Below, in pieces: positions 8,125-40,153 of a stretch of DNA of 40,153 nt. The DNA comes from Gammaproteobacteria bacterium. Lineage in GTDB: Bacteria; Pseudomonadota; Gammaproteobacteria; Steroidobacterales; GCA-2729495. Each line of letters starts with the position of its first letter. The stretch's first letter is position 1. The notes under the pieces were generated by a model. It did no database searches, was not told the DNA's origin, and saw only the letters and a program-made list of their open reading frames with translations. Where the stretch lies: positions 1 through 40,153 of the forward strand of contig JAJRXW010000232.1 in NCBI GenBank assembly GCA_024276095.1. The letters run 5' to 3'. The translations under genes and the position numbers were made by a program.

Positions 8125-8296
8125 CCTGTCCGTTGAAGTATCCACGTAGCAATCAGGTGCCCGGTTTCCGGGCGGGGCCAACTTCGGGCTATTTCATGTT
8201 ACGGTTTCGGCTGAACTTTATTCGTCAGCATACGTTCGACCGGAACGGCAAGCCGTCATGACGGGCGTTCGGCTGCGACAGATTGGGCCTGGCGTC

Positions 8297-12515: not shown

Positions 12516-15500
12516 TTACGGCGTGAAGTTGAAAAGATCGAATGCCCAGGTTCCGGTATCCAGGTTATGTACCAGGATCAGCACCGGTTGCGGGAAGCAG
12601 ACAAAGCCGCTGCACGTAATCACCGAATTGAAGCCGGCCGGATAGACCAGTTCGACGCATGTCGAGCTTGAACTGAGTATGCAGCTCGGGAATACGCTTG
12701 ACGGTAACTGGTTGGCCGTTTCGGCGGCTTCACCGGCGGCTTCCATTGCATCGACAACGCCCTCGAAAAACTCCCAGACATCGTCCAGGTCCTCGATGCT
12801 GCTCGGATCCAGTGCGCTGAACACGCCCTCTACGGCCGCGATGGCCGCCGAACCCACAAGGAAGACATCGCTGCGTTCCGGCAGGGTTCGATTCGCACCG
12901 TTGACCTCGATGACGCTTCCGCCTGCATTGAATACATGGAACGAAAGGCTGGCGCCGGTAATGATGCCGGGCAGGTTCATGTTATTGACGAACTGGTTCA
13001 GCAGGCCGTCGATAGCCAGGATGGCTGCCACCCTGGCCAGATCGTGCAGGATCGGGCCGTAGACATCCGTGACGATTCTCATCTGGATCTGTACGGCGAC
13101 GGACATGCCGGCCAGCGAGAAGAATGCCGGTTGCCGGTTCGCATAATACGCACCGGGCACCATCGGCTGGCCTGCCATGAGCTGTTGCGGGTCTGCCAAC
13201 TGCCGGTAAAAGTCCGCTGGCGTCTGCGCATCCGCTACCCCGATGCCCGAGCCGACGAGTTCGGCCTCGAAGCGGTCAACCACTGCGTACAGGTGCTGCG
13301 GGAACACCACTGCGTACAGGTAATTCACCAGCCCGGCTGCCTCTACCCAGCCATTGGGCGACGGGTTCAGGGCGTTGAGCTGATCGAGCAGGGCCTGCAG
13401 CTCCGCGTTGAGCTGGTTCATCCTGGCTTCATCGTCAATGGGGCCGGTCGCATTCAACGAAGCATAGAATGCGCTGGTCTCCTGCAGTTTTACGACGATG
13501 TTGTTCAGGACGATCTGCAACGTTGCATCATCGGCCGTCTGCGGGTAGCCGTTGGCCGCCAGTTGCGCGGTTGTCGGCAGGAAGCCGCCTTCCGGCGCAA
13601 AGACCGTCGAACGTCTCATGGCAGTCCTGTTCACCGCGTTGCGTGCGCTGCGCATGGCGTCCAGGGCTGACTGTACGCCGGCAATGTCACCTGTGGCCAG
13701 TGATTCCGCCAGTGCTTCAGCGCTGGCGGCGATGCCGTTCATCGAAGTCGACAGCCCGCCGTACAGCGCTTTTTGTCCGGACGTTGCAGCCGGCCGATAG
13801 ATGAGGAAGTCGGCGCTTGCAGTGGCCGTGTCGCCATCGACGGTGACGGTGACGGTATAGACGCCGCGGGTATCGGCACTCGTCAAGATCACACCGCCCG
13901 ACTCGGTCGGCAGGGTACCGCTGGCTTCACCGGCAGCGAACGTGATCGAATAGGTGACCGGCGGCATGGGTGTCATTGGCACGCCGTCGCCGTCGATGAC
14001 CTCCGGTATCAGCGTAATCGGATCGCCTGCGGTGATCGCTGAAGTGCTCAGCGCCAGCGTGACCGACAGACCGGCTGCCGGGCCGGTCGAGACCTCCATG
14101 TCTACGCCACTGCCCTCGGACACGATCGTGCCTGCCACCGGGTTCTGACTGATGACGTCACCTGCCGGCACCGTGTCGGAGCTGGCTGTACTGACCGTAC
14201 CAACGGTCAGGCCGGCACCGGTGATGGCTGCTTCCGCCGCGACCTGGGTAAGACCGACGACGCCAGGTACCGGAACCTGTACCGGGCCCAGTGAAACTAC
14301 GATATTGACGGCGCTGTTACTCGCGGCCAGCACACCCGCAACCGGATCCTGGCTGATGACATCGCCTGCCGGAACCGTGCTGGAATTGCTGGTGCTGACT
14401 GTGCCGACCGTCAGCCCGGCACCGAGGATATTCGCGGAAGCATTCGCCTGGGACAGGCCCACGACGTTGGGCACCGCGATATCCGGCGCGCCCAGCGATA
14501 CGGTCAGGTTGACCGCACTGCCTTCATCGACCGTTGTGCCGCCAACCGGATTCTGGCTGATGACTTCACCGGCCGGAATCGTATCGCTGTTGATGGTCGT
14601 CACCGTGCCGACCGTCAGGTTTGCACCGACGATGGCAGCTTCGGCCGTTGCCTGCGTCATGCCGACGACATCGGGCACACTGACCTGTACAGGACCGAGC
14701 GATACGACGAACGATACGGCCGACTGTTCGTCGACAGTCGTGCCGCCGATCGGATTCTGGCTGATCACGTCGCCGGCGGGCACGGTCGGGTTGTTCTGTT
14801 GCGTGATCGCACCGACCGTCAGGCTCGCACCGGTGATAGCAGCTTCGGCTGTCGCCTGAGCCAGGCCGACGATATTGGGCACACTAACCTGTACGGGACC
14901 GAGCGATACGACGAACGATACGGCCGACTGTTCGTCGACAGTCGTACCGCCAGCCGGGTTCTGGCTGATCACGTCGCCGGCCGGCACGGTCAGGCTGTTT
15001 TGTTGTGTAACAGCTCCAACCGTCAGATTAGCGGCGGTTATCGCCGCTTGTGCATTTGCCTGCGACTGACCGACGACATCGGGCACGCTGACCTGCACCG
15101 GGCCAAGCGACACGACGAGATTGACCGGTGACGCGCTGTTGACGGTGGTACCGCCGGCCGGGTCCTGGCTGATCACTTCGCCGGCCGGCACCACCAGGCT
15201 GTTCTGCGTGGTGATGACCCCGACGGCGAGTTCTGCCGCGCTGATAGCCGCTTCGGCCTGTAGCTGCTGCAACCCGACGACGTCAGGTACCGTGACCTGC
15301 GGAGGCCCAAGCGATACAACCAGGCTGATCGTTGCTCCGGACAGCAGCAGGCTGCCGGCGCCGGGGCTCTGGTTGATCACCGTGCCCTGCGGCACCGTGC
15401 TGCTCAACTGCTCCGTGATCGTGCCGACCACGAATCCGGCACTGACGATCGCTGCTTCGGCATCCGCCTGACTCTGGCCGATGACATTCGGCGCCGGGAA

Positions 15501-18500
15501 GGTCACCGGGCCGAGCGATATGACGATGTCGACCGGCGTGCCGAGCACGACAACCGTACCGCCGACCGGGCTCTGGCCGATCACGGCGCCGGCCGGAACG
15601 GTGTTGCTGTTCTGGGTGCCGACTGTGCCAACCGTCAGGGCTGCTGCGATGATTGCCGCCTCGGCATCCGCCTGGGTCTGGCCAAGCACGTCAGGTACCG
15701 CCGTGGTTTGCGGACCGAGTGAAACCACCAGGTCGATTGCGCTGCCCAGTGTGACGAGCAGGCCGCCAATCGGGTCCTGGCCGATCACATTGCCGGCGGG
15801 TACCGCGTTGCTGTTCTGTGTCGTGACCGTGCCGATTGCCAGGCCGGCGCCGATAATCGCCGCCTCGGCATCCGCCTGCGTCTGGCCGATGACGTCTGGT
15901 GCCTCGATCCGCACCGGGCCTGTCGAGACGACGATGTTGACAATCGAACCTTCCCTGACCCGCGAACCGGCCGGCGGATTCTGGCTGATCACCAGGCCTT
16001 CAGGCACTGCGTCGCTCGGTACGAGGCTGGTCTGGCCCAGGGTCAGCAGTTCGTCTGCCAGCGCATTCGCTGCTTCGCTTGCGGTGATGTTGGTGACATC
16101 CGGTACCGTCGCCAGGCTCGCACGTGCGCGCCGGCTGGTTTGCGGCGTTCCGAACGCCGCCAGGCTCGAGTCGCAAATTGCCATACCGTCCGCATCGAGC
16201 GGCGTTACCCGGTACCAGTATGTCTGGCCGTTGGTCAGACCCTTGTCGAGGAAGGTCGCATAACTGGTGACGACATTGCTCCGCAGGATCGACAGGCCGC
16301 GTGCTGCGCCGTCTGTGCTGCGATAGATGTCGTAGCTCGCAGCGCCCGGGACCGGGCTCCAGACCAGCTGGTTCTTGCCCGGCTTGGAGCGTACTTTGAT
16401 CGGCCCCATGCAGCCACAGTCGGCTACATCGACGCGCGTGAAGTCCGTGTTGGTCAGGTTTGGCGACTGCGCGATCGGGAAAGCCAGCGCCGTGTTGTCA
16501 GACACGCGCAAACCGATATCGCGTTCGCCCGGCACCGGGAAGCTGATCGTTGGTGTGGCACCGCTCGCCTCGCCGAAGTCGAACGGGCTGACGCCGTCGA
16601 GTTCCCACTCATAGCCGGTGATGGTGTCAAACGGCGGTGCGCCGGATTCACTCGTGCCTTCATCGACATCGAATGAGTCTGAGCCGTCTGCCTGGAAGTC
16701 CTCGTTGGCGCAGACCAGGTACGGTCCACCGGCCACCGCTGTCGGCGGCCGCGGTGGCACGGTGATCTCGATGAGCACGATATCATCGTCGAACCGCGCC
16801 GGTACGTTGTCGTCGGTCACGCGCAGCGTGACCGGGAATGAACAGGGGATCGGCAGCGTTGCGCACGGGAAGTTGTGGGTCGCAAACACACCGCTGGCGT
16901 CAAAGGTGCCGTCGTTGTCGAAGTCCCACTGGTAGTTCACCAGTGAGCGTGCCGGGTCCTGGTGGAACGAGGCCGAGGCATCGAAGCCGATCGGCACATC
17001 TGCTGCGCCCGGGTTCGGGTTGGCGGCCGCGCGTGCGACCGGACCGGCCTGGAACAGCGTGCGGGTCAGGATCTGTGTTGCCCACGATGTGTTGTGTTCG
17101 TCCTGGTTGCTGCCCTGCGAATTGCCGGGCCTGTCCGTGAACATGCCGATGTTGACGCCGGTCGTGGTCTGAAAGTCCACCACGGTCCGGGCCAGGCCGA
17201 TGGCCGGGTCCGAGTACCAGTCCAGTGGCGCCAGCGCAGGCCCGCAGCCCGTGGTGCCGCCGTTCGGCCCGCAGCCGACCGAATTGTTGTCGCCGATGAT
17301 CACCACCTCGGAAGGCACCGCCGTGCGCATCGCCTTGGCGAAGTTGAACATCGCGTAGTAGTAATTGCGGAAGTTGTTGCCGGCGATCGGCTGGCCGAAA
17401 TGCCGCCGGAAGTAATTCTCGGTACGCACCCAGCGTTCGTCAGGCGTCGTTGAGGTGGTTGCCTCGATGTCGTCCATCGCCATCTGCACCATTGCGGCAC
17501 CGGTCACGCCGAAGGGGCCCCAGACCGGGTTCGGTGAGTTCGTATAGCCATGCCGGCCATCGTTGTTGCTGGTGTCGCTTTCCGTATCGGTCAGTTCCAG
17601 ACCGCCCGGGTTGCGGTCCTTGACCCATTGGGGCACCGTTGCGCCGAATACTTCCTCGGCTGCCAGCAGCCCGATCGCTGCCCAGCCGGATACCGAGTTG
17701 TCGATGTTGCCGGTCGTGTTGTTCCACGGGCTGTAATGCCAGCCGGAGCGGCTGAAGTTGTCGCCCTGTCCCCACGCGTAGTAATCCACCATGTCCTGGA
17801 TGATTTCGCCATAGGTCCGCCCGACCACGTTCGCCGGCCCGGTGACCGCTACCGCGTCCGGGGTGCCCGAGGCGATGATCGCATCCATGACCATGCCGCC
17901 CTGGTAGTTCGGCTGCGTGCCGTTGACGTACACGCCAATGCCGTTGCCGTTGGCGTCCGGGTCGTCCGGCAAGCCGGCCGGCCGGCCGAAAGTTTGCGGG
18001 CCGATTGCCCGGGTTGCCAGGCTCGCGATAGCGTACTTCAGGCCCCGCGCCACGGTCTCTGTGTAAGGACTGCTTGCCGGGCCCGTCTCCAGGTAGCCGT
18101 TTGCCTCGAAAGCGTTGATGACCGCCGAGGTCGATGAGTTCTGTGCCGTGCCGCCGGTCTGCGGGAAATTCCAGCGCGTCATCGGGATCGCCCCGGCCGT
18201 TGTCGAACCGTTACCCTGTGTGGCCCGGCCGTCGAAGCGGAACTGGTTGCGATGCATGAACCACAGCGCTTCATCGATTGCCGCGTTGACTTCGACCGGT
18301 AGCGTCTTGTCGCGGATCTCGGTGCGGTATACCGCCGAGACCGGCGCATCGATGCCGTTGTCGACTGTCAGTGTCGCCAAAATGATATCGCCGTCCTGAC
18401 CGATATAGGTGTGCTCGATCCAGATGGCATGAGGCGGCGTAAACCCGACATCGTCGGTTTGAAAAAAGGAGGTGGGGAGTGGATCGACCGTGCCGGATAC

Positions 18501-18743
18501 GGACGGTGAGCCGTCACCCGGGTCCCATGTCCACGTTGCGCCGACGGAACCGACGTCGACCGCACCTTTCAGTGTTGTCGGCTGCCCGGAGATAACGTCA
18601 TGTGGCAGAATCGGGTCGTTCGGATCCACCGGTACCGTCGACACGATCGGTGGCGCAGCGAGCGCGATTGCGGTAATACAATAAAGAATTAATGCGATGC
18701 CGAGTCGCATCCCCAGATCCAGACCACGTTTTCGAACCGCCAT
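12516..18743 (-). CDS. Giant secreted PKD / alpha-alpha toroid-like / Fn3-like / PASTA(x10) protein
   Basis: 2075 aa. Start 18743 has GAGGGG 9 nt upstream; a Sec signal ends near residue 30 (IALAAPP). Domains in order: PKD-like (~40-130); a helical region (~148-560) with ALWFMHRNQF, QGGMVMDAIIASGTP and SGWAAIGLLAAEEVFG, resembling prenyltransferase/squalene-oxidase alpha/alpha toroids; PKD (~570-665, YQWDFDNDGTFDASG); PKD-like (~669-765, YEWELDG); Fn3-like (~781-870, YDIYRSTDGAARG); ten PASTA repeats (~878-1555) of ~68 aa; an Ig-like domain (~1556-1645); and a helical, Ala-rich C-terminus (~1650-2075) that I do not recognise. No kinase, transpeptidase, sortase motif or TM anchor is seen. The first ~870 residues are paralogous to the 830-aa protein at 31038-33530. 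Likely extracellular or surface-bound; substrate unknown. Two palindromic elements lie in its upstream region. Confidence 0.9.
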   Translation of the reverse strand: MAVRKRGLDLGMRLGIALILYCITAIALAAPPIVSTVPVDPNDPILPHDVISGQPTTLKGAVDVGSVGATWTWDPGDGSPSVSGTVDPLPTSFFQTDDVGFTPPHAIWIEHTYIGQDGDIILATLTVDNGIDAPVSAVYRTEIRDKTLPVEVNAAIDEALWFMHRNQFRFDGRATQGNGSTTAGAIPMTRWNFPQTGGTAQNSSTSAVINAFEANGYLETGPASSPYTETVARGLKYAIASLATRAIGPQTFGRPAGLPDDPDANGNGIGVYVNGTQPNYQGGMVMDAIIASGTPDAVAVTGPANVVGRTYGEIIQDMVDYYAWGQGDNFSRSGWHYSPWNNTTGNIDNSVSGWAAIGLLAAEEVFGATVPQWVKDRNPGGLELTDTESDTSNNDGRHGYTNSPNPVWGPFGVTGAAMVQMAMDDIEATTSTTPDERWVRTENYFRRHFGQPIAGNNFRNYYYAMFNFAKAMRTAVPSEVVIIGDNNSVGCGPNGGTTGCGPALAPLDWYSDPAIGLARTVVDFQTTTGVNIGMFTDRPGNSQGSNQDEHNTSWATQILTRTLFQAGPVARAAANPNPGAADVPIGFDASASFHQDPARSLVNYQWDFDNDGTFDASGVFATHNFPCATLPIPCSFPVTLRVTDDNVPARFDDDIVLIEITVPPRPPTAVAGGPYLVCANEDFQADGSDSFDVDEGTSESGAPPFDTITGYEWELDGVSPFDFGEASGATPTISFPVPGERDIGLRVSDNTALAFPIAQSPNLTNTDFTRVDVADCGCMGPIKVRSKPGKNQLVWSPVPGAASYDIYRSTDGAARGLSILRSNVVTSYATFLDKGLTNGQTYWYRVTPLDADGMAICDSSLAAFGTPQTSRRARASLATVPDVTNITASEAANALADELLTLGQTSLVPSDAVPEGLVISQNPPAGSRVREGSIVNIVVSTGPVRIEAPDVIGQTQADAEAAIIGAGLAIGTVTTQNSNAVPAGNVIGQDPIGGLLVTLGSAIDLVVSLGPQTTAVPDVLGQTQADAEAAIIAAALTVGTVGTQNSNTVPAGAVIGQSPVGGTVVVLGTPVDIVISLGPVTFPAPNVIGQSQADAEAAIVSAGFVVGTITEQLSSTVPQGTVINQSPGAGSLLLSGATISLVVSLGPPQVTVPDVVGLQQLQAEAAISAAELAVGVITTQNSLVVPAGEVISQDPAGGTTVNSASPVNLVVSLGPVQVSVPDVVGQSQANAQAAITAANLTVGAVTQQNSLTVPAGDVISQNPAGGTTVDEQSAVSFVVSLGPVQVSVPNIVGLAQATAEAAITGASLTVGAITQQNNPTVPAGDVISQNPIGGTTVDEQSAVSFVVSLGPVQVSVPDVVGMTQATAEAAIVGANLTVGTVTTINSDTIPAGEVISQNPVGGTTVDEGSAVNLTVSLGAPDIAVPNVVGLSQANASANILGAGLTVGTVSTSNSSTVPAGDVISQDPVAGVLAASNSAVNIVVSLGPVQVPVPGVVGLTQVAAEAAITGAGLTVGTVSTASSDTVPAGDVISQNPVAGTIVSEGSGVDMEVSTGPAAGLSVTLALSTSAITAGDPITLIPEVIDGDGVPMTPMPPVTYSITFAAGEASGTLPTESGGVILTSADTRGVYTVTVTVDGDTATASADFLIYRPAATSGQKALYGGLSTSMNGIAASAEALAESLATGDIAGVQSALDAMRSARNAVNRTAMRRSTVFAPEGGFLPTTAQLAANGYPQTADDATLQIVLNNIVVKLQETSAFYASLNATGPIDDEARMNQLNAELQALLDQLNALNPSPNGWVEAAGLVNYLYAVVFPQHLYAVVDRFEAELVGSGIGVADAQTPADFYRQLADPQQLMAGQPMVPGAYYANRQPAFFSLAGMSVAVQIQMRIVTDVYGPILHDLARVAAILAIDGLLNQFVNNMNLPGIITGASLSFHVFNAGGSVIEVNGANRTLPERSDVFLVGSAAIAAVEGVFSALDPSSIEDLDDVWEFFEGVVDAMEAAGEAAETANQLPSSVFPSCILSSSSTCVELVYPAGFNSVITCSGFVCFPQPVLILVHNLDTGTWAFDLFNFTP
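14080..16115 (-). repeat. Ten tandem 204-bp repeats encoding PASTA domains
   Basis: Repeat starts fall at about 16100, 15896, 15692, 15488, 15284, 15080, 14876, 14672, 14468 and 14264, i.e. every 204 bp. Each unit reads roughly PDVVGxTQAxAEAAI, GLTVGTVTxxNS, VPAGxVISQNPxGGT and VNLVVSLGP. The sixth and seventh units share an identical 50-bp block (14692-14741 and 14896-14945), indicating a recent duplication or gene conversion, while the first unit is the most diverged. Short-read assemblies may mis-count copies here. Confidence 0.9.
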
Positions 18744-30038: not shown

Positions 30039-30054
30039 TGGTACGGATGTTGCA
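30039..30054 (+). promoter_or_regulatory. Sigma-54 (RpoN) promoter of the second PEP-CTERM gene
   Basis: TGGTACGGATGTTGCA matches the -24/-12 consensus TGGCACG-N4-TTGCW with one mismatch and the obligatory GG-N10-GC spacing (GG 30040-30041, GC 30052-30053). The start of transcription would be near 30066, about 100 nt before the ATG at 30168. PEP-CTERM genes in exosortase-bearing bacteria such as Zoogloea are known to depend on RpoN and the PrsK/PrsR two-component pair. Confidence 0.7.
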
Positions 30055-30167: not shown

Positions 30168-30890
30168 ATGAAAACCAAATTTTTGTTGATACGAAAAGTG
30201 GGAGTACTGGCATCTGCCATATTTCTCATTTTCGGAGTAGCGGCACCGGCAAATGCGGCGGTCATTAGCCTGTTTGACTGGGGATTGAATATCGATGGCG
30301 CCATTTCTATGACCGGTGATCCGATTCCTGCCGGCGTAGATGCTTCCGGTTTTGATTTTGGCACCGGCCTTGGCACGATTCAGGTTTCTGTCACGCGCGC
30401 CGGTCCGCATAATGTGGTCAGCTTTTTCGATCACGAAATCGACGAAGACGACAATACCTTTTTCAACGAGGCAGGAGCCACAGGTGGTGCCGCGGCGACA
30501 GCCGGCCAGGCGTGGGAAATAGATGAGCCGGGTTTCGTGTTCGGTGATATCTACGACAACTTCCTCGACAATACGCTCGACAACATCAATGCGATCCCTG
30601 TGGACTTCGAAGATGACGTGTCGATGGCCATGGGATTCGATTTCACACTGGCAGCGCTTGAAACTGCAACGATCAGTTTTTTCGTGGGCCTTGTTAATGA
30701 CGCACCGGGTTTCTATCTGGAACAGATCGACGATGACAGCCAGGCTTCAATTTTCTTCTGGGGCGATGTGGCAATCGATGGTGGTGGTATTGAACCGCCA
30801 GTGCCGCTTTCCGAACCGGGAACCCTGCTGCTGTTCGGCGCCGGTCTTCTTGCCCTCGGTTTGCGACGGCGCAGCCTGAGAATCCACTGA
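30168..30890 (+). CDS. PEP-CTERM sorted exported protein
   Basis: 240 aa. The start has GAGGA 7-8 nt upstream. The signal peptide MKTKFLLIRKVGVLASAIFL then IFGVAAPANA is followed by an acidic, Asp/Gly/Phe-rich mature domain (~31-212) with no recognised enzyme motif. The C-terminus is a complete PEP-CTERM signal: PLSEPGTLLLFGAGLLALGL and basic tail RRRSLRIH. Exosortase would cut at the PEP-like motif and release or attach the protein to the exopolymer layer; the exosortase itself is not in this window. Sigma-54 promoter upstream, strong terminator downstream, so it is monocistronic. Function unknown; such proteins contribute to floc or biofilm matrix in some species. Confidence 0.88.
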   Translation: MKTKFLLIRKVGVLASAIFLIFGVAAPANAAVISLFDWGLNIDGAISMTGDPIPAGVDASGFDFGTGLGTIQVSVTRAGPHNVVSFFDHEIDEDDNTFFNEAGATGGAAATAGQAWEIDEPGFVFGDIYDNFLDNTLDNINAIPVDFEDDVSMAMGFDFTLAALETATISFFVGLVNDAPGFYLEQIDDDSQASIFFWGDVAIDGGGIEPPVPLSEPGTLLLFGAGLLALGLRRRSLRIH

Positions 30891-31037: not shown

Positions 31038-33530
31038 ATGATCGCTATCAGGATGTCCCGTGCCCGGGATTTTTTGCCGTTTCTGTTTTTGCTTTTCACA
31101 TTAATTGCCGGCCCGGCGCTTGCCGTGCAGCCGGTGGTGAAAACCGTACCCTGGGTACCTACGAACCCGCTGATTCCGCACGACGCGATCAGCGGTCAGG
31201 CGACAACGCTGAAAGGTACGGCCAACGTTCAGGGTGCGAATTTTGAAGCCACTTGGGACTTTGGCGATGGCTCGCCCGTGGCAACCGCTACGGTCACCAA
31301 CCAGTACGTTATTTCCGCAGTCCACACCTACGTCGGGTCGATCGGCGATGTATTTACCGCCGTACTCACGGTCCGGGATACGACGACGGGTGAGTCGGAC
31401 AGCGCCAACTATTTCGTTATGATTCAGGCGCTGAACCCGGGCGACAACCTGGCCGCCGATGTCAACATTGCGATCGACAGGGGGCTTTGGTATCTCCACC
31501 AGACGATGTCAAGGACTACCTCTATCAGCGGGCTGCCAAGCGGCCGCTGGACCAGCGGATTTGCAGCCAGCAGCTATCAGTCCAACTGGGCATCCAACCT
31601 GCAGGCCTTCGAGGTCAATGGCCACCTGCCGTCCGGCGATCCATCGAATCCCTATACCGAGACGGCTGAACGGGCCCTGCGGAGTGTCCTGGATTCATTA
31701 CGAACCATCGGTATCCCTGCTTCGATGACCAATCCGCAGGGTACCTTTAATCCGGATACCAACGGCAATGGCCTGGGCATCGAATTGACCCAGAGCCAGG
31801 ATCAGTACCAGGGTGGCATGATGATGGATGCCATCATCGCCGCCGGTACACCCGCTGCGCTGGCCGATACCGGACCGGCAGGGATAATCAACCGCAGTCA
31901 TGCCGACATCATCGCCGACATGGCCGATTATTACGTTCGTTGCCAGTATGTCGGGACCCAGGGTGGCGGCTGGCGTTACGGTTGCGGCAGCTTTCCGGAT
32001 GGATCGGCCAACCAGTGGGCCGCAATCGGCCTGGTCGCAGCCGAGCGTGCATTCGGTTATGTGACACCGACCGCGGCGAAGGCTCATAACGTGACCTGGA
32101 TCAGCTACGCACAGGGTATCGACGGGCGGTCCGGTTACACCGGTGCAAGTTCGGCTCCCTGGGGTGTGTGGGCAACAACGCCTTCGGGTACTGTACAGAT
32201 GGCGTGGAACGGCATCGGCAGAGGTGATGCGCTGTGGGATCTGTCGGAGACTTTTCTGAGAGATAATTTCTGCAATATCGGGGGGGCCACAGCCGCCATC
32301 AGGGATTATTACTACGGCATGTTTTCCTTCACCAAGTCGATGCTGTTGCACGACTCGAATGGTGACGGCGTTGCAGAGCCGATTACGATGTTGCAAAGCG
32401 CGACTCCCGGAGTTGCGCCGATTGACTGGTATGCAGCTCAGGCTTCGAGCGGAGACCAGTGCGACGGTGTCGCGAGAACTTTGATCAATGATCAGGCAGC
32501 CGCGGGTTACTGGCGTGTGCACAACGTTTCGGGTTCGCAATACTCGTTTGAAACCTCATGGGCAATCATCATGCTGAATCAAACGGTATTCGCTTCCGAT
32601 GTGCCGGTGGCGGTTGCCGCTGCAAATCCGAATCCCGCCGTGGCCGGCCAGACAATCACCCTGGACGGTTCCGGCTCATTCCACCAGGACTCATCATTGA
32701 ATATCGTGTCATGGTCATGGGATCTGGATAACGACGGGACAGACGACGCGACCGGGGTGGTGACGACAACGTCCTTTGCTGCCGTAGGCAGTTATCCGGT
32801 CAGGCTGACCGTCTGCGACGACGAGACGCCGGTGGTCTGCGACGACACAATCCTGACGGTCATCGTCGATACGCCGCCTGTCGCGCCAACGGCCGATGGC
32901 AACGGGCCGTATGTATTCTGTCCGGCAACGCAGCCATGGTTCCTGGACGGCACGGGGTCCGTGAATCCGGACGATGGTCAAAGCGAACCCGGTCTGCCGG
33001 GAGACAGCATCCAGTCTTACGAGTGGGATCTCAGTGGCAACAACGTGTGCGATAACGCTGCCGGTGCGCAACCGGATGTCACGGCTTTCTTCACTGCTGC
33101 GGGCATCGGCGATTACCTGATTCGCTTGCGGGTGACGGATACCACGGCAGTCTCGTTCCCGAGCAGCGGAATGGGCGACCTGAGCGATACCGCTACTGCA
33201 CAGGTCTCGGTCAAGCCGGCAAACGATGCCGCCTGTCAGTGTATCGATGACCTGACCGCGCGGGCCAAGTCCGGAAAGATCCAGCTTGTCTGGTCCGACA
33301 GCGCACCCGAGGGAGGCTATAATGTATACCGGTCGACGACCCAGGGTGGCCCGTATGCGTTTATCGCCAATACCACGTCCAGCTACTCGACTTATCTGGA
33401 CCGAGGGCTGACGAATGGTGTGACCTATTACTACATCGTTCGCCCGGCAGCACTAAACGGGGATGAGCTGTGCCAGTCGAACGAAGTCAGCGGCAAGCCG
33501 TCGGCACGAACGCGACGCGGGCGGCGCTGA
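31038..33530 (+). CDS. Secreted PKD / alpha-alpha toroid-like / Fn3-like protein (short paralogue of the 2075-aa protein)
   Basis: 830 aa. The start at 31038 has GGAGGGG 7 nt upstream; signal peptide to ~Ala29 (LIAGPALA). Domains: PKD-like (~70-125, ATWDFGDGSPVA), alpha/alpha toroid-like helical region (~140-510; LWYLHQTMS, QGGMMMDAIIAAGTP, NQWAAIGLVAAERAFG), PKD (~521-610; SWSWDLDNDGTDDATG), PKD-like (~612-728; YEWDLSGNN) and Fn3-like (~737-820; YNVYRSTTQGG). It ends in a basic tail, RTRRGRR. Order and many exact stretches match the first ~870 residues of the giant protein (for example IPHDAISGQATTLKG against LPHDVISGQPTTLKG), so they are paralogues. It lacks the PASTA array and C-terminal domain. 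Toroid folds occur in terpene cyclases, glycan lyases and protein-binding folds; the catalytic residues of terpene cyclases were not recognised. A secreted binding or processing protein is likely. Terminator follows. Confidence 0.9.
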   Translation: MIAIRMSRARDFLPFLFLLFTLIAGPALAVQPVVKTVPWVPTNPLIPHDAISGQATTLKGTANVQGANFEATWDFGDGSPVATATVTNQYVISAVHTYVGSIGDVFTAVLTVRDTTTGESDSANYFVMIQALNPGDNLAADVNIAIDRGLWYLHQTMSRTTSISGLPSGRWTSGFAASSYQSNWASNLQAFEVNGHLPSGDPSNPYTETAERALRSVLDSLRTIGIPASMTNPQGTFNPDTNGNGLGIELTQSQDQYQGGMMMDAIIAAGTPAALADTGPAGIINRSHADIIADMADYYVRCQYVGTQGGGWRYGCGSFPDGSANQWAAIGLVAAERAFGYVTPTAAKAHNVTWISYAQGIDGRSGYTGASSAPWGVWATTPSGTVQMAWNGIGRGDALWDLSETFLRDNFCNIGGATAAIRDYYYGMFSFTKSMLLHDSNGDGVAEPITMLQSATPGVAPIDWYAAQASSGDQCDGVARTLINDQAAAGYWRVHNVSGSQYSFETSWAIIMLNQTVFASDVPVAVAAANPNPAVAGQTITLDGSGSFHQDSSLNIVSWSWDLDNDGTDDATGVVTTTSFAAVGSYPVRLTVCDDETPVVCDDTILTVIVDTPPVAPTADGNGPYVFCPATQPWFLDGTGSVNPDDGQSEPGLPGDSIQSYEWDLSGNNVCDNAAGAQPDVTAFFTAAGIGDYLIRLRVTDTTAVSFPSSGMGDLSDTATAQVSVKPANDAACQCIDDLTARAKSGKIQLVWSDSAPEGGYNVYRSTTQGGPYAFIANTTSSYSTYLDRGLTNGVTYYYIVRPAALNGDELCQSNEVSGKPSARTRRGRR

Positions 33531-33551: not shown

Positions 33552-33586
33552 ACGGGCCCATCCGGATGTTCGGGTGGGCCCGTTTT
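33552..33586 (+). terminator. Rho-independent terminator after the toroid/PKD gene
   Basis: ACGGGCCCA (33552-33560) pairs with TGGGCCCGT (33575-33583); the 14-nt loop contains a smaller CCG/CGG pairing; TTTT overlaps the end of the stem. It begins 22 nt after the stop. Confidence 0.75.
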
Positions 33587-33592
33587 GTCTGG

Positions 33593-34210
33593 ATGGAACG
33601 AAAAATAGTGAGATATCCGGTTTTTGCAGGAATTGTACTGGCGTTATTAGGGCTCAGCGCGTGGGCAGGAACCGGGGACTACAGGCTGGCAGGAACCGTG
33701 GCGCTTGGTGATGGGGAATTCCTCGCATTGATTGAGGGGCCCACCGGCGAGCAGCGCATCGTTCACGAAGGCGATGCTTTCGAGGACGGGACCGTAACCC
33801 TGGTTACAGGTTCGCAAGTCCGGATCGAGATGGCGGAAGACAGCCTGATTCTGTCATTGGCCGGGAAAGAGCCCGGCATCGAAGCGGAAACTCCTCCCGG
33901 GCCGGCCATAGCCGGCCTCTATCTCAGTCAACGGCAACTCAAGTGGCTGCAGGGACTCCAGGCTGCTGACGAAGACAGGCTCCGGTCAGCGTTTTTCGAG
34001 GGCCTGGCGTTGCCGCAGGGGTTGCAGCTGCGACATATCAGCGTTGCTCAACAGGAATACTCGTCGCTTGGGGCGGCTTTGCCGGCGATCCGGAAGGCGT
34101 TTACGCGCGGAGAGATACCGCATCTGTTTTTCGAATCCGGCGGCGGTCTCGATGAGGTCTATCTGATTGCAACAGCGGATTCCGGCGAGCCCCGGGAAGG
34201 CATTCAATGA
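33593..34210 (+). CDS. Exported protein with GspC homology-region-like domain
   Basis: 205 aa from the ATG at 33593, immediately after a terminator and without a clear ribosome site; a GTG at 33608 (VRYPVFAGIV) is an alternative. One N-terminal hydrophobic helix (VFAGIVLALLGLSAWAG) is followed by a domain (~27-85: YRLAGTVALGDGEFLALIEG, RIVHEGDAFEDGTVTLVTGS, VRIEMAEDSLILSL). This resembles the HR domain of type II secretion GspC and type IV pilus PilP proteins, which bind the secretin's N-domains. The C-terminal half (~100-205) is not recognised and lacks the usual PDZ domain. No other secretion-system gene is nearby. It may be a stand-alone secretin-contacting factor for export of the neighbouring toroid/PKD protein (speculative). 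Confidence 0.6.
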   Translation: MERKIVRYPVFAGIVLALLGLSAWAGTGDYRLAGTVALGDGEFLALIEGPTGEQRIVHEGDAFEDGTVTLVTGSQVRIEMAEDSLILSLAGKEPGIEAETPPGPAIAGLYLSQRQLKWLQGLQAADEDRLRSAFFEGLALPQGLQLRHISVAQQEYSSLGAALPAIRKAFTRGEIPHLFFESGGGLDEVYLIATADSGEPREGIQ

Positions 34211-34223
34211 GGCGCCAAACGCG

Positions 34224-34496
34224 TCAGCTGACCTCCCAACCGGAAAGCCTGCGGACCGGAACGATCTCGATGTCCACGTACGGCCGGAACGGCTGCTGGA
34301 TCGTTTCGATCGCAGCCTGGTCTTCGGCTTCCATCAAAGCAAAGGTTCGGGATCCATCCAGGGCGCCCCAGTCAGCGTGCAGGCTGACGCCTTGCGGGAT
34401 GTTGGCATAAAAACTCTTCGCCAGTTCGCCAAGTGCAGCGAATTCCTCGCCGCTCAATTCAGGGCGGGTTGTGCTGATCAGCATAAAAAGCATCAT
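34224..34496 (-). CDS. DUF3303-like small protein
   Basis: 90 aa, no signal, 13 nt downstream of the VTT membrane protein gene and translated from AAGGAG just before two consecutive ATGs. Sequence MLFMLISTTRPELSGEEFAA, then GVSLHADWGALDGSRTFALM and YVDIEIVPVRRL, follows the pattern of the ferredoxin-like DUF3303 family (small, function unknown; related in fold to dimeric alpha-beta barrel proteins). Converges with the GspC-like gene with only 13 nt between stops. No function proposed. Confidence 0.65.
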   Translation of the reverse strand: MMLFMLISTTRPELSGEEFAALGELAKSFYANIPQGVSLHADWGALDGSRTFALMEAEDQAAIETIQQPFRPYVDIEIVPVRRLSGWEVS

Positions 34497-34509: not shown

Positions 34510-35130
34510 TCAGCGTGTTCGTCGATTCGGCTGTTTTCCTGCCGGGGCCAGCCAGCGCCACAGAAGCCAGGCGATGACCGGCAGCAGCATGGGCAGCAGC
34601 AGTCCGGGGCCGATCAGTGCTTTGGGTAACAGCGTGGCGCCGTTTGCCGCCAGCGCCGCCGCGTAGATACCATTACCTGCGGCGCAGGCAATCATGAACC
34701 GCGTAATCGGCATACCGTTGGCGCCGGCGGTCAGGGCAATCGCTTCGGCAAGAACAGGTACCGGGCGGCTCAGGAATACGATGGACATCGCCGGTGCTTC
34801 GGGCAGCTGCGGCTGCAGTCTCCCCAGCGCGAAGCGCGCCACTCCGTAACCGAACATGTGGCCGATCAGCAGGCCTGACCAGGTGGCGACAAAACCTCCC
34901 CAGAAACCGAGCCGCGCACCCAGCAGGCTGCCGACAATGCTGGACGGGACCGGTATGAACATATCCAGCACCAGGATACCGCTCCCGGCAAGACCGAAAA
35001 GCAATGCGTTGTCATCGACCGAACTCAGCCACTTGTCGCCCGGCAACTCACCAATTATGACAAAAGGTACGATTGGGATCAGCAGAGCGGCTATAATGAC
35101 TGACAATTGGCGCAAGGTTTTTTTTTGCAT
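34510..35130 (-). CDS. VTT/DedA (SNARE-associated) family inner-membrane protein
   Basis: 206 aa from the ATG at 35130 (MQKKTLRQLS); a GTG three codons earlier is possible. Five to six hydrophobic segments. The VTT/DedA core is PVPSSIVGSLLGARLGFWGG followed by FVATWSGLLIGHMFGYGVAR (~60-98), and FLSRPVPVLAEAIALTAGANGM carries the conserved arginine-proline re-entrant segment. DedA-family proteins act in membrane lipid homeostasis, and some (UptA, PopT) recycle undecaprenyl phosphate. Divergent from the radical-SAM/YdjY operon. In E. coli ydjY sits between ydjX and ydjZ, which encode proteins of this superfamily, so the neighbourhood repeats a known gene association. Confidence 0.85.
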   Translation of the reverse strand: MQKKTLRQLSVIIAALLIPIVPFVIIGELPGDKWLSSVDDNALLFGLAGSGILVLDMFIPVPSSIVGSLLGARLGFWGGFVATWSGLLIGHMFGYGVARFALGRLQPQLPEAPAMSIVFLSRPVPVLAEAIALTAGANGMPITRFMIACAAGNGIYAAALAANGATLLPKALIGPGLLLPMLLPVIAWLLWRWLAPAGKQPNRRTR

Positions 35131-35143
35131 CGCCGGCACTCAT

Positions 35144-35237: not shown

Positions 35238-36467
35238 GTGGATGGACTGAGTGGATCTCCCGCTTTTAAAGTCGAAGTCATGTTCGAAGGCATTCGCTAT
35301 TCCGGCGCATTGGCCGAGGCGGCCCGCCACTCACTGCCGAATTTTTATCCGTATCGTTTCAGGCCCGGGGAGCACGATCCGACCGGCACCGGCAAGGCCG
35401 AGATTCCCTACCTGATGACAACCGGCGATGGAACGCTGATCCGGGTAATGGGCAACGGCGATTCTGCATGGTTCGTGCAGGGTTCGCGGGCCGAGGGCTA
35501 CAGCCTGTGTCGTGATGGAACGGCCGACGTAATACCGATCGACTTCGAGCCCCGGCACGAGTGGCTTGCCGGTAAAAGTTCCGACAATTTTCCGCTGGCG
35601 CAGGCGGGTGTCAGTACCCACGGCGACATGATGATCATCAACGTCGCTCCCGGGTGCGAGTATTTTCTGAAGAAGCCGGACGGGCAGTCCATGCGCTGTA
35701 CTTTCTGCGCTTATGGCGCTCCTGATCAACGTACCGCTCATCTGGGCCAGGTCGCAGGAAAGGTCGAAATCCCCGAGCTGACGCTCAGCCATATGCGCGA
35801 TGCGATGGCAGCAGTGATGGCGGCGACAGAGATTCGGCACATCTACCTGGTCGGTGGATCGCTGACCGATCCGTCCCGGGAGGGGGAGCGGTTTTTGCAG
35901 CTGGCCCGGGCCGTCAGGGACAGTAATCCGGCATCGATACCGGTCACGCTGGGTTCCGGCGCATTGCCGGCTCAGCTGCTGAAGCAGTTTCACGATGAAC
36001 GGCTGGTTGAGGCGGTTTGCTTCAATCTCGAGATCTGGTCCGAGCGACTTTTCTCACAGGTCTGCCCCGGAAAGAACCGGTATGTTGGTTATCAGGGCTG
36101 GATTCAGTCGCTGGAAACAGCCGTGAGTCTCTGGGGTGCCGGGCGGGTGTACTCGGCGATGGTGGCCGGTATCGAGCTTGAGCCCGAATACGATATCGAC
36201 TGGCAGGCGGCCGCGGATCTTGCGCTGCAGGGTGCGGATGACCTGTGTTCCAGGGGTATTATCCCGATCTATTCGCTGTACTGGCCGGCGGGCGGTAAGG
36301 AGCGGTCGGATTATCAGTTGCGCCTGCGAAGCTTCTTTGAGCGACTTGCATGCGGCTACAGTGAGATTCGCCGGGCGAAAAATCTGGCCATATGGGATGG
36401 TTTCATGTGTCACCGTTGCGCATATATGCAGCTGGAATGTGATCTGGACCGGGTGAGTGCATTATAG
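35238..36467 (+). CDS. Radical SAM enzyme with atypical CX13CX2C motif
   Basis: 409 aa from the GTG at 35238, with AAGGAG 11 nt upstream. Cys140, Cys154 and Cys157 in NVAPGCEYFLKKPDGQSM and RCTFCAYG fit a radical-SAM 4Fe-4S motif ending in C-x-phi-C, but the first spacing is 13 instead of the usual 3. IYLVGGSLTDPSREGERFL resembles the GGE-type SAM-binding segment, and HDERLVEAVCFNLEIWSERL and VYSAMVAGIELEPEYDIDW fit later barrel strands. A second cysteine cluster, Cys391-x2-Cys394-x6-Cys401, near the C-terminus (FMCHRCAYMQLEC) may hold an auxiliary cluster or metal. Residues 1-125 form an extra N-terminal domain. I do not recognise a characterised subfamily. It heads an operon with an O-methyltransferase-like enzyme (1-nt overlap), a YdjY protein and a TonB receptor. 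Confidence 0.82.
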   Translation: MDGLSGSPAFKVEVMFEGIRYSGALAEAARHSLPNFYPYRFRPGEHDPTGTGKAEIPYLMTTGDGTLIRVMGNGDSAWFVQGSRAEGYSLCRDGTADVIPIDFEPRHEWLAGKSSDNFPLAQAGVSTHGDMMIINVAPGCEYFLKKPDGQSMRCTFCAYGAPDQRTAHLGQVAGKVEIPELTLSHMRDAMAAVMAATEIRHIYLVGGSLTDPSREGERFLQLARAVRDSNPASIPVTLGSGALPAQLLKQFHDERLVEAVCFNLEIWSERLFSQVCPGKNRYVGYQGWIQSLETAVSLWGAGRVYSAMVAGIELEPEYDIDWQAAADLALQGADDLCSRGIIPIYSLYWPAGGKERSDYQLRLRSFFERLACGYSEIRRAKNLAIWDGFMCHRCAYMQLECDLDRVSAL

Positions 36468-37498
36468 TGAGTCCTATGGCCAGTCGATCAGAGGAACAGC
36501 CCGGCGACGCAGACCCATCGTTTATCATGGCGTTGGGCACGGCGTACTGGGGTTCCCGGACGTTGCTGGCGGCGAATCGTCTCGGGGTATTCGATATCCT
36601 GTCAGGGGAGCCGATGCGCGCTTCCGAACTTGCCGAAAAACTTGGCCTGGTGCCCGCGGCAACCGAACTGTTCCTGAATGCCTGCGTCGCTCTGGGGCTT
36701 TGCGAGAAGGACCAGGGGCGCTTTCGGAACAGCGTATCGAGCGAGACGTACCTCGTCTCGACGAGCCCCGCGTCCATGGCCAATGCCATTCGCTATAGCG
36801 ACAACCTGTTTTCCAGCTGGGGCAAACTGGAGCAGGCACTGGCATCGGGCGAACCGCCGATGGCGGCGAAGACTTACCTTGGAGATGACCGGGCACAGAC
36901 CCGGGATTTTGTCTACGGTATGCACGACAGGGCTCTTGCCGTTGGCCGCTGCCTACCGGAGATGATCGATCTTTGCGGCCGGAAAAAAATGCTCGATGTG
37001 GGCGGTGGCCCGGGAACCTATTCTGCATTGATTACCGCGCGGTTTCCGGGGCTGCACTCCGACGTGCTGGAGCTTGCCGGCGTGGCAGAGATTGCTGCGG
37101 AAATTCTCGACGGCCTGAATGCATCGGATCGCGTAACCATGCGGGAAGGGGACTATCACAGCAGTGATTTTGGCGTCGGGTACGATGTCGTGCTGATGTC
37201 GGGAATGTTTCACCGCGAGACTGCGGAAAACTGCCGTCGACTGATTGACAAGGCCCGGGCCTGTCTCGAACCCGGCGGTATGCTGATTGTCAGCGATGTA
37301 TTCACCGACACTGGGGGCACCGGCCCGGAGTTTGCCGCCCTGTTTGGTTTGAACATGATGTTGACTGCGCCGGACGGGCGCGTGCACGCCGACGCCGATG
37401 TCGCGGCATGGATGGCGGATGCAGGATTTCTTGAGGTGGTGCGCCAGCCGTTTCCACCGCCAATGCCACATCGTATCGTGACGGGGCTCAGGTCATGA
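36467..37498 (+). CDS. SAM-dependent methyltransferase, acetylserotonin O-methyltransferase/CrtF-BchU type
   Basis: 343 aa from a GTG at 36467 overlapping the radical-SAM stop by 1 nt; ATG 36476 is an alternative. Residues ~15-100 form the winged-helix dimerisation domain (AYWGSRTLLAANRLGVFDIL, RASELAEKLGLVPAATELFL). Residues ~165-335 form the class I methyltransferase: motif I KKMLDVGGGPGTYSALITAR (~178-197), acidic SDVLELAG, GDYHSSDFGVGYDVVLMSGM and LEPGGMLIVSDVF. This family methylates hydroxyl groups, or carbon in the case of BchU-like enzymes, on aromatic, isoprenoid or tetrapyrrole substrates. Coupled to the radical-SAM protein, so probably the next step of one pathway. Substrate unknown. 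Confidence 0.88.
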   Translation: MSPMASRSEEQPGDADPSFIMALGTAYWGSRTLLAANRLGVFDILSGEPMRASELAEKLGLVPAATELFLNACVALGLCEKDQGRFRNSVSSETYLVSTSPASMANAIRYSDNLFSSWGKLEQALASGEPPMAAKTYLGDDRAQTRDFVYGMHDRALAVGRCLPEMIDLCGRKKMLDVGGGPGTYSALITARFPGLHSDVLELAGVAEIAAEILDGLNASDRVTMREGDYHSSDFGVGYDVVLMSGMFHRETAENCRRLIDKARACLEPGGMLIVSDVFTDTGGTGPEFAALFGLNMMLTAPDGRVHADADVAAWMADAGFLEVVRQPFPPPMPHRIVTGLRS

Positions 37499-38172
37499 GG
37501 CGCACCTTTTTTACGGTGGCTGCGTGTTGTGTGCTGTTCGTGTCCGCAGTTCAGGCGCAGGACGAACGCGAGCCAGCGCCGGTAATGAAGGACCTCGGCG
37601 GTGGGCGGTACCTGATCGGCACCATCCTGCTGGATACGGAAAAACAGGAATTCAGTGTGCCCGGCAAGGTGATACACCTTGACGATGCGCTGGAGTATAT
37701 CGCAGTGACCAGAGGCGGAATGAAAGAATACGAAAGCCTGCTGGAACTGGATTCCGGTGCCCGGGAGTTCAAGCTTGCCTGCATCCTGATCGGCTTGGAT
37801 GAAAACAACAGTGTCAAACCCCGTTATCAGTTCGATGCCCTCCAGGTAAAGGGCCAGGCGGTCTCAATTACCATCAGCTGGCAGGACGGGGACGAGACCA
37901 GGTCCGTTTCGGCTGCCAACGCGCTGTCGTTGGGCGAAGAAACCTACGACAATGACAACTGGGTGTATATTGGCTCAATGACGACCGACGGGAACCGTCA
38001 GCTGACGGCGGAGTTGTCGGGCACATTGATTGGTTTCGTGCATGATCCGGACAGTATTATCGAACACCGCGATGGTGCCGGTATCGGCGCATATGGAATG
38101 GTAACGGGGAACAACGAACTGCTGCCGCCGGAAGGGGCCCCGGTGACGGTCAGTGTATCTGTAGTGAAGTAA
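37495..38172 (+). CDS. YdjY-domain periplasmic protein
   Basis: 225 aa; the ATG overlaps the methyltransferase stop (ATGA). Signal peptide MRRTFFTVAACCVLFVSAVQ followed by AQ. The mature part matches the YdjY domain: LGGGRYLIGTILLDTEKQEF, SVPGKVIHLDDALEYIAVTR, KEYESLLELDSGAREFKLAC and ILIGLDENN (~34-106), then ITISWQDGDETRSVSAANAL and WVYIGSMTTDGNR. YdjY proteins are exported and poorly characterised; they occur with DedA/TVP38-type membrane proteins, and one is encoded divergently here. It precedes a TonB receptor by 38 nt and may handle the receptor's cargo in the periplasm or bind the radical-SAM product (inference). Confidence 0.82.
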   Translation: MRRTFFTVAACCVLFVSAVQAQDEREPAPVMKDLGGGRYLIGTILLDTEKQEFSVPGKVIHLDDALEYIAVTRGGMKEYESLLELDSGAREFKLACILIGLDENNSVKPRYQFDALQVKGQAVSITISWQDGDETRSVSAANALSLGEETYDNDNWVYIGSMTTDGNRQLTAELSGTLIGFVHDPDSIIEHRDGAGIGAYGMVTGNNELLPPEGAPVTVSVSVVK

Positions 38173-38210
38173 GCAGGGTGGGGAGGTAAAAGGAATATCA
38201 GGAGAACAAA

Positions 38211-40153
38211 ATGAATAACAAATTTTCCGTGCGCTCGCTGTTGCCGGGCCTGTTCGGTCTCGGTCTGCTGGGTTCTTCGGTTGTACATGCAGAGCTGAGC
38301 GTCGCTACCCGGGTCGACGCCTACGATATCGAGGAAATCGTCGTCACGGCCACGCGTCGTGGGGAGGATGCATTTCTGATGCCGTTCGCAATCAATTCCC
38401 AGGATCTGACAACGCTGCAGCGTGACCGGCAGGTCCGTACCATTCCCGATGCCATGCGGGAATTGCCCGGTGTGATGGTGCAGAAAACCGGGCACGGCCA
38501 GGGATCGCCGTTTATCAGGGGCTTCACGGGGCTGCGGACTCTGTTTCTCATCGATGGTATCCGCCTGAACAACTCGATATTCCGGGAAGGGCCCAATCAG
38601 TACTGGAACACGGTCGATCCGTTCAGTGTCAGCCGCCTCGAACTGGTGAAAGGACCATCGTCGGTGCTTTACGGCAGCGATGCGATTGGCGGCACGGTCA
38701 ATTCAATCAGCCGGTCGTATTCGGATCTTGGCTGGGAGCAGGGCCTGCAGGGACGCATGCTGGTGCGCGGGGCGACTGCGGAAGACTCGTTCGTAGCGAG
38801 GCCCGAGATTGGCTATGCCAACGGTGCGCTGAGCATGTTGGCCGGTGCCTCGTTCAAGAATTTTGGCGATCTGCGGGCCGGCGATCCGACCGGTAAACAG
38901 CCAAAGACCGGTTACACCGAAACTGCGGCAGATTTCAAGATCAGTTATGCGCTGGACGAGCGGCAGGAGCTGACCATGGCTGTGCAGGTTGTGGATCAGG
39001 ACGATGCCTGGCGCTCTCACAAGACGATCTATGGCAAAAGCTGGGAAGGCACCACCGTCGGCAGCGAACTGCGCCGTTCCCTCGACCAGCGCAGGAGGCT
39101 GGTTTATCTGCAATACCAGGCCAGCGAGCTTGCGTCGTGGATGCAGGACCTGTCTCTTAATCTTTCATGGCAGGGACAGGATGAGGAACGTGATCGCATT
39201 CGGTCCGGCGGCCGACAGGATATACAGGGCCTGGATGTTGGAACGCTGGGTCTGACCGGGCAAATGGCGATCCCCAGCCGGGCGGGTCTTTGGACGGCCG
39301 GTGTCGATATCTATCGTGACGAGGTCGATTCGTATCGGCGCGACTATAACGCCGACGGCAGCCTGCGCGGCGAGCGGATTCAGGGTGCCGTTGCCGACGA
39401 TGCAACATACGATACGGCTGCCGCCTATGTTCAGAACCGGCTGGGCCTGGGCGATCGCACTGACCTGTTCCTCGGGCTGCGTTATACGCGTTCGAAAGCG
39501 GACGCGCGCGCGGTACAGGACCCGCTGACGGGCGAAAAAACGAGTGTGACAGGCGACTGGAATGCTACGGTCGGCAGTGCCAGGCTGAATTATCGCCTCG
39601 ATGCCGATAATACTACCAGCCTGTTCGGGGGGGTATCGCAGGGTTTCCGTGCGCCTAATCTGTCCGATCTGACCCGGTTCGATTCGAATCGATCGAGTGA
39701 AATAGAAACGCCGGTCAGCGGTGGTCTCAAACCGGAGAAGTTCACTACCTACGAGGTCGGCGCCAAGATTAATGGCGACCAATGGCAGGGACAGTTTGCG
39801 GTCTACTATACGGACATAAAGGACATGATTATTCGCACGCCGACCGGCCGTGTGATTGACGGCGAAAACGAGATTACCAAAAAGAACTCGGGGAGCGGCT
39901 ATGTCAACGGCGTTGAACTGCAGCTGCGTTACCGTTTCTCAGAGACCTGGAATGCGTTTGGCAACGTTACCTGGATAGATGGTGAAGTCGATACCTTTCC
40001 GACATCGGCTCCTGTCTCGGTACGCGAGCCGCTGGATCGGCTGATGCCGGTCACCCTGTACCTGGGGGCCCGCTGGGAGCCGCCGAGCCTGCCTTACTGG
40101 CTGGAAGGGCTGGCGACTGTTGTCGGCAAGCAGGATGATCTGTCGACGCGTGA
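38211..40153 (+). CDS. TonB-dependent outer-membrane receptor (truncated by right edge)
   Basis: The open frame starts at the ATG at 38211 (AGGAG 6-7 nt upstream) and continues to the last base, ~647 residues, without a stop. Signal peptide to ~Ala27 (GSSVVHA), TonB-box-like IEEIVVTATRRGEDAFLMPF, and plug domain with IPDAMRELPGVMVQKTGHGQ, PFIRGFTGLRTLFLIDGIRL, NQYWNTVDPFSVSRLELVKG and PSSVLYGSDAIGGTVN. The barrel contains FGGVSQGFRAPNLSDLTRFD and KPEKFTTYEVGAK, typical of siderophore, heme and cobalamin-type receptors. Compared with the receptor at 21351-23690 it belongs to a different branch, closer to the heme/hemoglobin receptor style (RGFxGxRxLxLIDGxRLNN). Its operon suggests the ligand is related to the radical-SAM/methyltransferase product. 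Confidence 0.93.
   Translation, partial: MNNKFSVRSLLPGLFGLGLLGSSVVHAELSVATRVDAYDIEEIVVTATRRGEDAFLMPFAINSQDLTTLQRDRQVRTIPDAMRELPGVMVQKTGHGQGSPFIRGFTGLRTLFLIDGIRLNNSIFREGPNQYWNTVDPFSVSRLELVKGPSSVLYGSDAIGGTVNSISRSYSDLGWEQGLQGRMLVRGATAEDSFVARPEIGYANGALSMLAGASFKNFGDLRAGDPTGKQPKTGYTETAADFKISYALDERQELTMAVQVVDQDDAWRSHKTIYGKSWEGTTVGSELRRSLDQRRRLVYLQYQASELASWMQDLSLNLSWQGQDEERDRIRSGGRQDIQGLDVGTLGLTGQMAIPSRAGLWTAGVDIYRDEVDSYRRDYNADGSLRGERIQGAVADDATYDTAAAYVQNRLGLGDRTDLFLGLRYTRSKADARAVQDPLTGEKTSVTGDWNATVGSARLNYRLDADNTTSLFGGVSQGFRAPNLSDLTRFDSNRSSEIETPVSGGLKPEKFTTYEVGAKINGDQWQGQFAVYYTDIKDMIIRTPTGRVIDGENEITKKNSGSGYVNGVELQLRYRFSETWNAFGNVTWIDGEVDTFPTSAPVSVREPLDRLMPVTLYLGARWEPPSLPYWLEGLATVVGKQDDLSTR

Follow-up and report, generated by a model that had tools for sequence, protein, structure and literature searches.

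The window analysed here, 40,153 nucleotides of DNA from a gammaproteobacterial genome, is an entire contig (source genome 2.87 Mb, 322 contigs, 99.7% complete). Its last four genes, at 35238-40153, lie on the forward strand. The first encodes a radical SAM enzyme (rSAM; 35238..36467, GTG start, 409 aa), the second a SAM-dependent methyltransferase of the PF00891 type (O-methyltransferase family 2) with a dimerisation domain (MT; 36467..37498, GTG start, 343 aa), the third a YdjY-domain protein with a Sec-type signal peptide (37495..38172, ATG start, 225 aa), and the fourth a TonB-dependent outer-membrane receptor with PF07715 and PF00593 domains (38211..40153). The last base of the rSAM TAG opens the MT GTG (1-nt overlap), MT and YdjY share the four nucleotides ATGA, and a 38-nt gap separates YdjY from the receptor, whose ATG is preceded by the ribosome-binding site AGGAGA. 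These spacings confirm an earlier, preliminary description of the four same-direction genes as one transcription unit combining two SAM-using enzymes, an exported YdjY protein and an outer-membrane receptor, assignments that the profile searches and the signal peptide bear out. Because the window is the entire contig, the receptor is truncated: its 3' end is missing, and it is short by ~65 residues compared with relatives of 712-713 aa.

Further genes lie upstream. A probable DedA/VTT (YdjX/YdjZ-like) membrane protein is encoded on the reverse strand, divergently from rSAM (34510..35139), as is a small DUF3303 protein (34224..34496; PF11746, 58.8 bits). On the forward strand are a PEP-CTERM (exosortase-sorted) surface protein (30168..30890), an exported PKD protein, part of which is related to the squalene-hopene-cyclase-like toroid family (31038..33530), and a further, small exported protein that belongs to the toroid gene group (33566..34210; NF041515, E 0.039), whose counterpart in one related locus (L010, cluster 23) is weakly GspC/PilP-like. 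A sigma-54-type -24/-12 site, TGGTACGGATGTTGCA (30039..30054, forward strand), is located 113-114 nt before the PEP-CTERM gene.

Conservation was assessed in ~33 distinct loci, obtained from one contig scan and searches of related genomes and drawn from Rubrivivax and other Burkholderiales, Gammaproteobacteria, Halochromatium, Thiohalocapsa, a Thiotrichales MAG, a 'Rhodobacterales' MAG and a Nitrospirae contig. Their open reading frames were picked by a codon-usage classifier, and some start positions are approximate. With the single exception of the Thiotrichales MAG (L031/L041), MT adjoins rSAM in every contig that continues past rSAM. YdjY is present in 27 loci; in SZAS-88 (G106) it lies on a separate contig from rSAM, again directly upstream of a TonB receptor. 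DUF3303 is found near rSAM in 22 loci, and relatives of the DedA/VTT protein (33.4 bits against PF09335 for the window protein, gathering score 33.9) stand beside it in 17. Gene order is shuffled in L030 (YdjY-rSAM-MT), L034 and the Nitrospirae locus L037 (MT-YdjY-DUF3303-rSAM, with DUF3303 within the operon), and the gene set is retained. The adjacency of rSAM, MT and YdjY is far more than chance: Burkholderiales, Gammaproteobacteria, Chromatiaceae and one Nitrospirae contig all show it. These three genes are the conserved core, and DUF3303 and DedA/VTT, across the divergent promoter on the other strand, also belong to the set. The TonB receptor is optional and not part of it: five loci, all of them gammaproteobacterial, are the only ones in which it comes after YdjY (the window, L010, L038, L017 and SZAS-88, where it is diverged and accompanies YdjY only), and in Burkholderiales an unnamed membrane protein, a toroid protein and a MoxR/DUF58 operon stand in its position. 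The originally described unit stands for rSAM, MT and YdjY, whereas it included a receptor from outside the conserved set and missed DUF3303 and DedA/VTT; the unit extends beyond the four genes. It is better described as an orphan module, rSAM-MT-YdjY-DUF3303-VTT, which a receptor may accompany and which belongs to a larger, undescribed envelope locus of PEP-CTERM and toroid genes.

The module is sparsely distributed. Among the genomes sampled, rSAM is carried by 4 of the 196 that belong to the order and by 1 of the 369 taken from the class. YdjY occurs in three of the 196, all among the four rSAM carriers; the contig of the fourth ends 20 bases past rSAM. Pairwise identities correlate between rSAM and MT (0.93), YdjY (0.84), DUF3303 (0.90) and VTT (0.77), and none of 2000 permutations of the identity matrices reached the observed value. 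Such co-variation is the pattern expected of a block that is inherited and transferred together, and simple shared inheritance of linked genes also gives it. The gene set is rare, real and repeatedly transferred.

The rSAM protein scores 143.4 bits against NF045502 (variant_rSAM, cut-off 125) and just 14.6 bits against the Pfam Radical_SAM profile. Its cysteine triad, C140/C154/C157 (CX13CX2C), is invariant in 31 aligned sequences with a spacing of CX13-16CX2C rather than CX3CX2C, and GGS and GxIxGxxE-like motifs are kept in the alignment. The three-cysteine motif, these further motifs and a predicted fold matching LipA, HydG and BioB place the protein in the radical SAM superfamily, which is marked by a three-cysteine [4Fe-4S] motif and a partial TIM barrel with SAM-binding motifs. 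A second, C-terminal motif (CX2CX6C; C391/C394/C401 in the window), FMCHRCAYMQLEC, is nearly invariant across the 31 relatives; C391 and C394 are jointly missing in L034, L035 and L036, which retain the third cysteine (C401). Searches of PDB sequences with the single sequence and with the family profile gave no match. Using an AlphaFold2 model (pLDDT 90.6), VIA-align ranked lipoyl synthases best (Z 16.0, 3.2 Å over 234 residues), followed by HydG, NosL, PylB, MqnE and BioB, with Z of 13-16 for LipA, HydG and BioB and scores declining smoothly from LipA through HydG and NosL to PylB. The fold is therefore predicted to be of the BioB/LipA type.

MT is complete, both of its domains exceed their gathering scores (PF00891, 82.1 bits; PF08100, 55.9 bits), and GGGP and H249-R-E are invariant in an alignment of 29 sequences. 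Among solved structures, its nearest relatives by sequence are DsyB-type MTHB S-methyltransferases (E 3e-57, family-profile search), RedM and SibL. The latter two, which are not known to be S-methyltransferases, score almost equally to DsyB.

YdjY passes the NF040466 (ydjY_domain) cut-off with 99.7 bits against 50. Its predicted structure is confident (pLDDT 90.7); Foldseek found no match to the model below E 0.001, the best VIA-align match (DUF371, Z 6.2) is not interpretable, and sequence and family-profile searches of the PDB gave no match. The cysteine cluster of E. coli YdjY is replaced in the aligned members of the window's branch, and a role as a 4Fe-4S protein, which was considered, is rejected since that cluster is not present. 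Literature searches for YdjY together with radical SAM returned nothing relevant.

Toroid or PKD homologues occur close to the operon in most relatives. In L011-L023, YdjY is followed by a conserved operon encoding an unnamed membrane protein, a secreted squalene-hopene-cyclase-like toroid, three unnamed proteins, and MoxR-like and DUF58-like proteins (the last two names were assigned by eye from the sequences). Literature searches for PEP-CTERM with radical SAM, and for MoxR/DUF58 with squalene, found nothing relevant. Elsewhere in the window, 12516-18743 (reverse strand) encodes a 2075-aa homologue of the PKD/toroid protein (family profile E 5e-295) with about ten PASTA domains, and 8258-11571 encodes a MauG-like di-haem peroxidase and then an FG-GAP/ASPIC protein, a pair that in L010, L035 and L038 comes immediately after the operon.

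A promoter motif also recurs among the surrounding genes. Across 478 kb of related loci, the strict sigma-54 motif has 8 occurrences against ~0.5 expected (an estimate from base counts), and nearly all of these sites precede PEP-CTERM, toroid or related genes. As in the window, sites precede PEP-CTERM/toroid-group genes in L007, L010, L013 and L038, and one in L017 stands ahead of YdjY-TonB-IDI2-Ebo. Many relatives have NtrC-type regulators and histidine kinases encoded beside them. Elsewhere in the source genome, the pattern is found before a pilin gene, genes of flagellar type and a further PEP-CTERM gene, which is the behaviour expected of a sigma-54 motif; genome-wide, its excess over a reversed control is small (9 vs 5). 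Sigma-54 control of the rSAM operon itself was considered and rejected: no strict site lies upstream of rSAM, and only the PEP-CTERM/toroid-group genes and the L017 YdjY have one.

A further association is with Ebo genes. SZAS-88 carries rSAM-MT-IDI-EboA-TatD-phosphodiesterase (L008; IDI type read from sequence), with EboE over its cut-off in the same region, and its second contig carries toroid, PEP-CTERM, GspC-like, YdjY and TonB receptor genes in that order (L069, 6394-12920) together with histidine kinase and NtrC genes. The L017 operon reads rSAM-MT-YdjY-TonB-IDI2-phosphodiesterase-EboA-TatD (EboA identified by clustering), and the Thiotrichales MAG has an EboC-EboA-TatD-EboE block behind rSAM. 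An Ebo cluster thus adjoins the enzymes in three lineages only, twice with isopentenyl-diphosphate isomerase. Searches of the window's own genome recovered neither EboA nor EboE, which places it outside the Ebo-cluster carriers. Scytonemin intermediates depend on Ebo genes to reach the periplasm (PMC6282210). The Ebo and isoprenoid-isomerase linkage suggests that a metabolite, perhaps prenylated, is exported; together with the DedA/VTT protein it favours, but does not prove, a small molecule that crosses the inner membrane.

No characterised pathway was found to which the set can be assigned, in agreement with the preliminary description. Our best explanation, held at slightly less than even confidence, is an orphan pathway for a methylated, possibly isoprenoid-linked metabolite that is moved to the envelope. 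It builds on the observed linkage, co-occurrence and co-variation of the genes, their families, the predicted folds and the signal peptide. In the order of steps that we infer, rSAM, MT and probably the DUF3303 protein would be cytoplasmic enzymes with a small-molecule product. The radical step, of BioB/LipA type, would rearrange the substrate of rSAM or form a C-C or C-S bond in it, and the PF00891 enzyme would then methylate the rSAM product. The DedA/VTT protein, or the neighbouring Ebo cluster in some relatives, would then move the product across the inner membrane; a flippase role for DedA/VTT and an enzymatic role for DUF3303 are suggested at the family level. Periplasmic YdjY may bind the product or pass it on. 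The TonB receptor of some gammaproteobacteria would take the molecule back up, finished or loaded, as its ligand, and in Burkholderiales the MoxR/DUF58/toroid operon may act in place of the receptor. The molecule might serve, or be made with, a PEP-CTERM and toroid surface layer under sigma-54/NtrC-type control.

The constant association with exported toroid and PEP-CTERM proteins would fit protein modification too. Here, rSAM and MT would act on the adjacent exported toroid/PKD or PEP-CTERM protein, with YdjY as a periplasmic chaperone and MauG-like di-haem enzymes acting further on the protein. The toroid/PKD homologues near most loci agree with this, as does the MauG-like/FG-GAP pair of the window and of the three loci in which it lies downstream. 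However, Pfam and NCBIfam scans matched no SPASM or peptide-recognition family in rSAM, the MT family acts mostly on small molecules, and SZAS-88 has the enzymes beside IDI and Ebo genes and the toroids on a different contig. We consider modification of a protein unlikely.

The preliminary description had suggested synthesis or salvage of a modified cofactor, metallophore or tetrapyrrole-like compound, for which uptake would proceed via the TonB receptor. The receptor's top NCBIfam profiles are indeed heme/hemoglobin and siderophore subfamilies, and its adjacency to YdjY is repeated in SZAS-88. However, the receptor scores below both heme-receptor cut-offs (191 vs 317 and 171 vs 324 bits), and a FRAP box is present without the histidine and without NPNL in the receptors of the window, L010, L038 and L017, on which grounds a heme or tetrapyrrole reading was rejected. 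Most loci lack a receptor, and no metallophore enzymes were seen adjoining it. Nothing was found specifically in support of such a product, which we regard as distinctly improbable. A thioether or other sulfur product, in which an auxiliary cluster (C391/C394/C401) would supply the sulfur that rSAM inserts, as in lipoyl synthase, and MT would S-methylate, is very doubtful: lipoyl synthases are the nearest folds, DsyB-type enzymes are the closest solved MT sequences and C391 and C394 are lost together, but the structural scores show no step after LipA, three members dispense with the auxiliary cysteines, and RedM and SibL match nearly as well as DsyB.

Returning to an exported metabolite, we also put forward a lipophilic factor, a possible though somewhat doubtful reading. 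An undescribed pathway comprising the variant rSAM, the PF00891 MT, DUF3303, a cysteine-less YdjY and DedA/VTT would make a methylated factor, isoprenoid-linked or otherwise lipophilic, for flipping into the periplasm. There, PEP-CTERM and squalene-cyclase-like toroid surface proteins under sigma-54 regulation would use it or have it attached to them. If true, this would give YdjY-DedA pairs, including that of E. coli, a role in metabolite transfer. The set joins families of unknown role (YdjY, DUF3303 and toroids) to well-understood enzyme classes, and, rare as it is, is shared by distant proteobacteria and a Nitrospirae contig. Halochromatium glycolicum DSM 11080 and Thiohalocapsa halophila DSM 6210 are among the strains that carry it, and its function is therefore testable in cultures.

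Several known systems resemble parts of the module. The solved PF00891 enzymes DsyB/DSYB, RedM and SibL are the closest kin of MT, yet are clearly diverged from it, and the gene context does not match DMSP synthesis. MSMEG_0568/Nit1C-type rSAM and other NF045502 members share the NCBIfam domain family and the long first gap of the cysteine motif; they differ in showing 22% identity and in having a nitrilase or anion-transporter-like context instead of MT and YdjY. In many Pseudomonadota, the NF045502 domain is fused to an apparent anion-transporter membrane domain (~880 aa), and in L060 the fused protein adjoins a sulfite-reductase-like/TusA-like gene (both identified by eye). Heme/hemoglobin TonB receptors (TIGR01785/TIGR01786), the best-scoring profiles for the window receptor, have the FRAP box in common with it but differ in the heme histidine and NPNL. 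Ebo (eustigmatophyte/bacterial operon) clusters are envelope-directed small-molecule loci, as the window set would be; they are absent beside the operon in most loci, and the Ebo study (PMC6282210) mentions no radical SAM. E. coli YdjY is 21% identical to the window YdjY and carries the cysteine motif GCLVCLDSCPVG where the window protein has GTLIGFVHDPDSII. Unlike the window operon, E. coli ydjXYZ-ynjABCD includes no rSAM or MT, but its YdjY-domain gene lies between two DedA genes, and the window set also pairs YdjY with DedA/VTT. Since this link is found in two unrelated settings, the role of E. coli YdjY becomes testable.
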